This document shows, one piece after another, positions 1,969 to 4,074 of a stretch of 64,000 bases of DNA (its first letter is position 1; each line of letters begins with the position of its first letter). Below the pieces are notes generated by a model. The model ran no database searches and was not told the DNA's origin. It was given only the letters and a program-made list of their open reading frames with translations. A program made the translations under genes and the position numbers. Source of the DNA: Terriglobia bacterium (GTDB lineage Bacteria > Acidobacteriota > Terriglobia > UBA7540); the NCBI GenBank assembly GCA_035712365.1, contig DASTAW010000008.1, positions 1 to 64,000 on the forward strand, in the 5' to 3' direction.

Positions 1969-3684
1969 TCAGCGCGAGGCCGGTTTGCTATCAGCATGTA
2001 ACTGCGTCAAGATCGCGTGAGCATAGCGAATAGGAATTCCAAAGTTGGAGCCCCCGAAACCTTCCAGGATGGCGTAGTTGACGCCGATTACTCTTCCGCT
2101 CTGATTGAACAGGGGTCCGCCTGAGCCGCCAGAAGTGGTTTGCGCGTCGTACACGATCTTGTCTTGGAGGATGTCGCCGATATGTCCTTGTGTAACGATG
2201 GGACGAATAAGATTCCTTTTCGCCAGCTCGTCCAAAACCAGCTCCGACTTCCCCTGGCTCGCCTTGGCAATGCTTCGCAAGGTCGATTCATCGGCGCGCG
2301 CGAGTAAAGCGTCGACTCCTGTGGCATAACCCATCAGGACCACAGGCTCACCGCTTACGGACGTGCCGCGGCTCAGGTCGAGAGGAAGGGGATTAACCTT
2401 CAGCGGGCTGAAATCTCCCTGGACAACAGCAAGGTCGGCCTCCGGCGAGATTGCGTCGACTTTCACTGGAAAAACGCGCGGCGACCCGGGAAAATAGACA
2501 TTCATCTCGAGGGCCTTCGGCACGAGGCCTTGTCCAGCCAGTAGACTCAACTCTTTGCTTTTCCACCAGGGCTCAACCACATGATGATTCGTGAGGACTA
2601 TACCGTCTTGCGCCACCAGGAATCCCGTCCCCAGGGCGTCCACCTCGACTTCAGGCCCTGTTCCCCCCACGTTGAGTAACGGATTGCCCTTGCCGTCATG
2701 AAGAGGTTCCCCTTCGGCGGTCAACCCGGCAAAGCGGAGGCTTTGGCCGGTAGCAGGATCTCGGTAGCCGACCACCACGTGAATGAGGCATACGCTCGGA
2801 GCATAAGATCGGATGATCTGTTCCGCCATCGAGCTTTCTGATTGGATTTTGCGCAGACCGGCCTCCGCCCTGGCGAGTTGATCGCGCAGGCTTGCCACTT
2901 CATCGGGGGACGCGTTGGCCATTTGGGCGCGCAACTCTCGCGATCTGCGCTCAAGCTTCTGCCGTTGGCCCTGCGGACCGTTCGCCGCATGTTTCTCCAT
3001 CTGTTCGCTGATCTGCCGCGCCCTCTCCACGAGGTTTGCCTGGTCGGTTAAATTCCCGCTGATGCGGGCGGCAACGCTGGAAGCGATTTGTATCTCGCGA
3101 TTGGCGCGGCGGGAGAAGAGGAAGAAAATGACAGCCATAGCCGCCGCCACCACCAGAATGGCGGCCAGACCGAGCTTTAGGCCCTTTCCCAGACGTGAGG
3201 CGTCGCGAGACATCTTTTCCGTGACTGCCAGCGCCTCAAATGCCGTGTGCGTAACCTTGACGCCCTCTTCGGCGACTTCGGTCCTGTCTCGCAGGGCCTT
3301 CATCGCCTTAGCGGCGCGAAGCTGAACTCTGACGCGGGCCAGAAGCTCGGCAGGCTCCAATGGCCGGGACACGGCGTCGTCGGCCCCGAGGTCGAGACCT
3401 TGAATACGCTCGTGCGCTCCACCTGCGACCAGCAGAATTACCCTGATGCCTGCGCTGGCAGTAGCTCCTCTGATTTCAGCCAGCAGGTCCGTACACAGCA
3501 TCCCGGGAAACTCGGGGTCGAGAAGCAGAATATCCATGCCCCGCTCCCGCGCCCACTTCAGCGCCTCCACGCACGATTCAGCGCAGAAAGGTTCGTATCC
3601 CGCCGCCAGCATCATGTCGCGAAGGGTCACGCGCTCCGACTCGTCGCCATCCATAATCAGGACTTTTTCACGGGATGTTTCCAA
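1969..3684 (-). CDS. receiver-domain / transmembrane / trypsin-like serine protease fusion
   Basis: A 571-residue three-part protein. Residues about 6-125 form a CheY-like receiver with the acidic pair and phospho-acceptor Asp56 present, but the conserved Thr/Ser is Val86 and the conserved Lys is Arg107, so phosphorylation may be lost or altered. Residues about 169-190 are a transmembrane helix, followed by a charged coiled-coil stretch (about 200-290). Residues about 300-571 are a HtrA-type trypsin-like protease domain with His368 (TNHHVV), Asp417 (EADLAVV) and Ser521 (GGSGGP). No PDZ domain is seen. Topology would put the receiver in the cytoplasm and the protease outside. The TTG at 3684 is preferred because GAGGGGG precedes it; a longer TTG frame begins at 3714. 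Substrates are unknown. Confidence 0.85.
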   Translation of the reverse strand: METSREKVLIMDGDESERVTLRDMMLAAGYEPFCAESCVEALKWARERGMDILLLDPEFPGMLCTDLLAEIRGATASAGIRVILLVAGGAHERIQGLDLGADDAVSRPLEPAELLARVRVQLRAAKAMKALRDRTEVAEEGVKVTHTAFEALAVTEKMSRDASRLGKGLKLGLAAILVVAAAMAVIFFLFSRRANREIQIASSVAARISGNLTDQANLVERARQISEQMEKHAANGPQGQRQKLERRSRELRAQMANASPDEVASLRDQLARAEAGLRKIQSESSMAEQIIRSYAPSVCLIHVVVGYRDPATGQSLRFAGLTAEGEPLHDGKGNPLLNVGGTGPEVEVDALGTGFLVAQDGIVLTNHHVVEPWWKSKELSLLAGQGLVPKALEMNVYFPGSPRVFPVKVDAISPEADLAVVQGDFSPLKVNPLPLDLSRGTSVSGEPVVLMGYATGVDALLARADESTLRSIAKASQGKSELVLDELAKRNLIRPIVTQGHIGDILQDKIVYDAQTTSGGSGGPLFNQSGRVIGVNYAILEGFGGSNFGIPIRYAHAILTQLHADSKPASR

Positions 3685-4074
3685 GGCGTCCCCCTCTACT
3701 ATCAGGTTATACAATTAGACTCAGGAGCCTGGGCATTGTAACAGTAAAAATAGATCACGACCTGCAAGGGACACGTTCCCGCCAGCGGGACCTTTGCGAC
3801 TTGAATGGCCCGGGAGTATTAAGGTGGCAACCAACTGGAGCAGGGCAAGTTCCTGGTCAGGACATGTGCAGGGGCCTCTCCAGGCCGCTCACACAGAAAA
3901 TTTCAGTGCCAGGAATTCAGACAATGCGGGTGCCAGGGTGGCCTGGCGAATATCCGGTGCTTTTAAGTTATTGATCGAATCATCTTCATCAAGCAGGCAA
4001 TCACGGCTTCGGATGAAGACGCAAGGGCTTGGGGCCCGGTTAAAGTTGCCGGGCCCGGCCCAATTAACATCCCG
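3685..4074. other. intergenic region with a GC-rich stem-loop
   Basis: About 390 bp between two minus-strand genes. Near the oxidoreductase stop codon there is a perfect inverted repeat, GGGCCCGG at 4032-4039 and CCGGGCCC at 4049-4056, with a 9-base loop. It follows the oxidoreductase stop in the direction of transcription but lacks a T-run, so it may stabilise the 3' end rather than be a classical terminator. I see no convincing coding sequence in the rest. Confidence 0.5.

Follow-up and report, generated by a model that had tools for sequence, protein, structure and literature searches.

A gene in the window (the 64,000-nucleotide stretch of DNA from a Terriglobia bacterium analyzed here) encodes, in one chain of 571 amino acids, a receiver-like domain, a transmembrane (TM) helix, a coiled coil, and an HtrA-like protease without a PDZ domain. 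The receiver, which is under purifying selection, has lost residues needed for phosphorylation and keeps a dimerization face, and the protease retains its catalytic triad. We propose that this protease lies outside the inner membrane and that pairing or docking of the pseudo-receiver in the cytoplasm, with no phosphorylation of an aspartate, sets its assembly or activity. The proposal is tentative, and we consider it almost evenly balanced between right and wrong.

The gene, its protease, and its predicted membrane topology

The gene (1969 to 3684, minus strand) is a single uninterrupted reading frame in a six-frame open reading frame (ORF) list, running from a TTG at 3684 down to 1972 and followed by the stop codon (1969). 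AGAGGGGG lies just upstream of this start; starting instead from an in-frame TTG at 3714 would lengthen the protein by 10 amino acids, giving 581 codons. In the predicted protein, Pfam Response_reg (PF00072) matched residues 8 to 119 at 44.9 bits (cut-off, 30.2), and Trypsin_2 (PF13365) matched residues 352 to 535, covering the full model, at 72.8 bits (cut-off, 27.6). Pfam matched no PDZ domain in this protein or in eight homologues, and the chain stops after the protease domain. The domain order that had been read from the sequence alone is therefore borne out by the ORF, the Pfam matches, and 59 homologues. The gene lies 2 kb into contig 8, close to that contig's edge, as might be expected if an assembly or annotation error had joined two genes. 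Yet the 59 distinct homologues, from dozens of independently assembled genomes, carry the identical fusion. We therefore rule out such a join, which is vanishingly improbable. The whole protein occurs only once in the window's genome; three further loci there gave trypsin-like matches that look like ordinary HtrA proteins. Nearby on the minus strand is a 133-amino-acid ORF (344 to 745) with four CxxC pairs, zinc-ribbon-like and without a Pfam match, placed downstream of a gene for a TAT-signal carbon-nitrogen hydrolase (787 to 1902).

The protease domain occupies about residues 344 to 562 (1999 to 2655). Its triad, which the sequence-only reading had called intact, consists of His368 (2581 to 2583), Asp417 (2434 to 2436), and Ser521 in a GGSGGP motif (2122 to 2124); each is invariant across the 59 receiver-type homologues. 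The His and Ser motifs are also visible in 24 homologues of other types. Searched against the PDB, a profile of the TM-coiled coil-protease core matched chains of HhoA, HTRA1, DegP, and DegQ. Of the features that define the HtrA/DegP (S1C) proteases, the trypsin-like domain and the triad are present and the C-terminal PDZ domain is absent. Two AlphaFold2 attempts with seven-row alignments modeled this half with low confidence. Foldseek matched the model to HtrA proteases, but the superposition was poor, and we set these matches aside as structural evidence.

A single TM helix spans about residues 171 to 191 (3112 to 3174), with a mean Kyte-Doolittle value of 2.9. Each of 83 homologues has exactly one hydrophobic segment, which in the window's protein covers about residues 170 to 191. 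The coiled-coil region follows (residues 192 to 285; 2830 to 3111); it was recognized by eye from its Leu and charged residues and was modeled by AlphaFold2 as helices 212 to 233, 237 to 257, and 260 to 293. In receiver-type proteins the charges flanking the TM helix are balanced, with 3.8 Lys/Arg on both sides, and so the positive-inside rule does not prove their topology. In proteins that carry an FHA domain instead, the N-terminal flank has 3.7 Lys/Arg and 1.2 Asp/Glu and the C-terminal flank has 2.9 and 2.0, respectively, favoring a cytoplasmic N terminus. Because receivers and FHA domains are cytoplasmic and the chain has a single TM helix, we infer an N-in/C-out topology. With the N-terminal domain in the cytoplasm and one TM helix, the protease would lie outside the membrane.

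The receiver-like domain

Residues 5 to 124 (3313 to 3672) form the receiver-like domain. AlphaFold2, again with a seven-row alignment, modeled residues 6 to 124 as a (beta-alpha)5 domain with pLDDT mostly between 80 and 91, and the best solved match of this model by Foldseek was PhoB (TM-score normalized to the target, 0.88). Thus, the first 120 residues do appear to fold as a receiver. We confirmed the residues noted earlier in the phosphorylation site: Asp56 is present, Val86 stands at the Thr/Ser position, and Arg107 stands at the Lys position. To these we add a further loss, with Gly13 in place of the second acidic residue.

In an alignment of the 59 receiver-type homologues, the losses run through the whole family. 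None of them has the pocket Lys, which is replaced by, among others, Arg (15 sequences), Phe (11), or Leu (10), and none is acidic at the position of the second acid. The Thr/Ser is kept in 30/59. The phospho-Asp is kept in 15 and lost in 44, with Gly, Glu, and Ser each replacing it in 12. In 33 other receivers of the window's genome, Asp-2 and the phospho-Asp are each present in 32 and the Lys is present in 31; these controls were drawn from the top 30 loci in a Pfam search, a sampling that favors canonical receivers. Neither the window's protein nor the family has the intact set of two acids, Asp, Thr/Ser, and Lys. A receiver fold with the phospho-Asp replaced describes 44/59 of the family; the window's protein retains Asp56 without the Lys. 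Since Asp56 is lost in most relatives, its presence in the window is a minority state. The sequence-only reading had proposed that a conserved architecture with the same residue changes in Acidobacteriota would support it. The order is indeed conserved there, but the changes differ among relatives, and Asp56 is mostly gone. Just after beta3, most relatives carry one or two cysteines where the window's residues 63 to 65 (3490 to 3498) read LCT: Cys64 is present in 45/59 and Cys65 in 37/59, in motifs such as DCC, SCC, and QCC. These cysteines could form a redox or metal site, which would be unexpected for an ordinary receiver.

The domain is nevertheless not decaying. Over 57 non-independent pairs, the median dN/dS was 0.12 for the receiver and 0.085 for the protease, and purifying selection of this strength argues that the pseudo-receiver is kept. 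Its best conserved part is the alpha4-beta5-alpha5 face (residues 86 to 124; 3313 to 3429), where the mean majority frequency among the 59 sequences is 0.70, versus 0.46 for the front half. PhoB dimers are held by the salt bridges R91-E111 and D101-R115. In our family the pairs R93-E113 and D103-R117, which we take to occupy the same positions, are each kept in 58/59 sequences when like charges are pooled. A kept dimer face is also typical of many OmpR/PhoB-type receivers, and it therefore shows constraint rather than pairing in the window's protein. In the AlphaFold2 model, alpha5 runs straight on into a juxtamembrane helix (residues 125 to 168; 3181 to 3312), which is supported by the consensus of the 59 sequences; residues 111 to 164 were modeled as one helix, with confidence below 50 from about residue 140. 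The earlier suggestion of a route other than ordinary phosphorylation is much strengthened, because the Lys is lost from every member and the phospho-Asp from 44, whereas neither the dimer face nor the protease has been lost. Annotating such proteins as two-component response regulators would be misleading.

Relatives and their N-terminal domains

A first homologue search, covering 60 related genomes and public genomes, found full-length relatives in several acidobacterial families. The profile of the TM-coiled coil-protease core, used for a wider search, matched 80 of 399 genomes of the window's class at an E value of ≤1e-60, five of them through a shorter protease-only form alone. Outside the class, it matched 20 further genomes of the phylum at ≤1e-75. 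These searches gave 83 distinct proteins, of which 59 have a receiver-like N terminus and 24 do not. Most of the latter are FHA-like; in two (L103 and L106) we saw neither a receiver nor an FHA-like N terminus. The receiver-carrying membrane protease is found in soil bacteria of one acidobacterial class. All the receiver forms come from the window's class or from records titled as acidobacterial, with one exception. The exception is a Spartobacteria record (L020). We considered a transfer and read it as probable misbinning, because its contig is 3.1 kb long, it falls inside the acidobacterial clade, and it stands alone among about 240 genomes searched in its phylum, Verrucomicrobiota. Among 247 genomes of the phylum of another record (L026, labeled Desulfocicer vacuolatum), there were one FHA-type relative and one protease-only relative. 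Two genomes each hold two receiver-type copies (G373, with L080 and L081 from two different subclades, and G155). In a further genome (G049), the homologue is split into frames of 520 and 95 codons (L011 and L017), by a frameshift or a sequencing error.

The receiver is thus one of several N-terminal modules on this scaffold, a point that the sequence-only reading had missed: elsewhere the module is FHA-like, and in some members there is none. An N-terminal FHA domain was recognized by Pfam in L013 to L015 and others. The six proteins tested scored above the cut-off, the first two at 57 to 60 bits and L078, L099, L101, and L178 at 32 to 38 bits; more diverged members fall below the threshold. 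No aligned FHA-type member has the GR-motif Arg found in FHA domains that bind phosphothreonine. Read by eye, the SxxH Ser and the following Asn are mostly lost as well, with the Ser kept in L067, L069, and L076 only. As a control, a canonical FHA domain of the window's genome keeps both GR and SRRH. The FHA-type members also match the Pfam family Yop-YscD_cpl (YscD cytoplasmic). In one family (f10, L138 to L142), frames of 322 to 343 amino acids have a short N-terminal tail, the TM helix, the coiled coil, and the same protease signature; some relatives therefore do without a cytoplasmic domain, a point against our proposal.

In a tree built from the protease region (78 rows), a branch with SH-aLRT support of 100 separates the 59 receiver forms from the FHA and protease-only forms. 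Since the receiver forms sit in one clade, one domain replacement is enough. The simplest reading would be a single exchange of FHA for receiver; the root is not fixed, but this order is favored over the reverse because it is the FHA forms that are widespread in the phylum. It is plausible, if on balance somewhat doubtful, that two unrelated phospho-dead folds have been exchanged on one TM scaffold as control modules of a periplasmic HtrA-like protease, giving inside-out signaling in one chain without phosphorylation. If so, folds of this kind that have lost their chemistry may find new use in pairing or docking, an idea that can be tested.

Proposed control of the protease and comparison with known systems

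In the mechanism we favor, the pseudo-receiver would have retained the PhoB-type alpha4-beta5-alpha5 face after the pocket that makes and reads phospho-aspartate was gone. Through this face it would pair with itself or dock a cytoplasmic partner. The resulting state would then pass along one long helix, from alpha5 through the juxtamembrane segment and the TM helix to the coiled coil, which would hold the protease domains and receive it. In other acidobacteria the pseudo-FHA domain may play the equivalent role on the shared scaffold. The signal would run from inside to outside, with the protease as the output. We searched the gene neighborhoods for a conserved operon partner and rejected the idea: no conserved neighbor that would name a partner or a substrate recurs across families, and a LexA gene with a zinc-phospholipase-like gene (both named by eye) recurs in one group only. 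In view of this, the input is likely to be a protein that diffuses or is encoded at a distant locus, or else the pairing itself.

The same lack of a conserved neighboring gene for a kinase or other partner fits a static anchor, in which the cytoplasmic domain serves for oligomerization or membrane placement only, no signal is passed, and the protease is a constitutive envelope housekeeper of the DegS or MarP kind. The missing catalytic phospho-residues and the exchangeability of the N-terminal domain (receiver, FHA-like, or none) point the same way. However, an anchor alone would require neither the clear purifying selection seen on the receiver nor the replacement of one signaling fold by another, and we regard this explanation as unlikely, though one to be taken seriously. 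Phosphorylation could instead persist in the subclade that keeps Asp56, with a histidine kinase acting on that residue and Arg107 substituting for the Lys. Indeed, 14 of the 15 sequences with Asp56 carry Arg107. We examined this covariation as a sign of a working pocket and rejected it, as the tree holds only about three to five independent contrasts and a sign test was not significant. Moreover, the second acid and the Lys are lost in all members and the Thr/Ser in the window's protein, and no histidine kinase family was seen by eye among the recurrent neighbors. Ordinary phospho-regulation is therefore improbable, although the window's member, with Asp56 and one acidic residue retained, may undergo residual phosphorylation.

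The architecture is symmetrical as to direction, and DegS-like proteases are known as sensors of envelope damage. The protease or coiled coil might then sense the state of the envelope, with the pseudo-receiver reporting to a cytoplasmic partner. This seems quite improbable, given that the triad is intact in every receiver-type member, which suggests that catalysis is the output, and that no partner gene is conserved. Trypsin-like peptidases, receivers, and FHA domains are all among the parts of conflict systems (PMC7159879), and the protein could be a defense effector like the trypsin-like peptidases coupled to NTPases. However, we recognized no vWA, MoxR, STAND, or Trypco genes among the recurrent neighbors, which were read by eye and not scanned one by one, and neighborhoods differ between families; a role in defense is highly improbable. 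Control from the cytoplasm through a pseudo-receiver remains our preferred reading.

In open-access papers we found no description of a receiver or FHA domain followed by a trypsin-like or HtrA protease, nor of this one-chain combination with exchange of modules; the individual elements are already known. DegS and other membrane-anchored HtrA proteases share the N-terminal TM anchor, the periplasmic trypsin-like protease, and the HtrA motifs. The window's protein differs in lacking a PDZ domain, in replacing the short anchor with a cytoplasmic domain of 120 residues plus a long coiled coil, and in two sequence features, an EPWW motif that follows the catalytic His and a helical insert that precedes LIRP..TQGH. 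The core profile also matched solved structures of MarP (Rv3671c; 3k6y, 3k6z, and 3lt3). Its trypsin-like domain is likewise membrane-tethered and without PDZ; unlike the window's protein, MarP crosses the membrane several times and carries neither a receiver nor an FHA domain. Aspartate-less receivers of the RitR, ChxR, and HP1043 type, in which Acidobacteria are rich according to a survey (PMC4395418), share the fold, the lost phospho-Asp, the variable second acid, and the kept pairing face. In that survey a basic residue stands at the Lys position in 70% of cases, versus Lys in 0/59 and Arg in 15/59 here, and the enriched effectors listed in its text include no protease (PMC4395418).

Like the FHA-type members, YscD and PrgH are single-TM proteins whose FHA fold lacks the phosphothreonine residues, and PrgH mutants show that phosphothreonine binding is not needed (PMC3635987). 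YscD and PrgH form scaffold rings of secretion systems, whereas the FHA-type members here are proteases. In LapD/LapG, a degenerate cytoplasmic signaling domain controls proteolysis across the inner membrane from the inside out (PMC3032553). There the control lies in a separate protein, LapD, which has HAMP and GGDEF-EAL domains; in the window's protein, sensor and protease share one chain, with no c-di-GMP domain. Control of periplasmic proteolysis is known through self-sensing of the envelope (DegS) or through a separate receptor (LapD/LapG). If our reading is right, a cytoplasmic signaling fold, a TM helix, and a periplasmic protease in one chain would be the simplest inside-out proteolytic switch.
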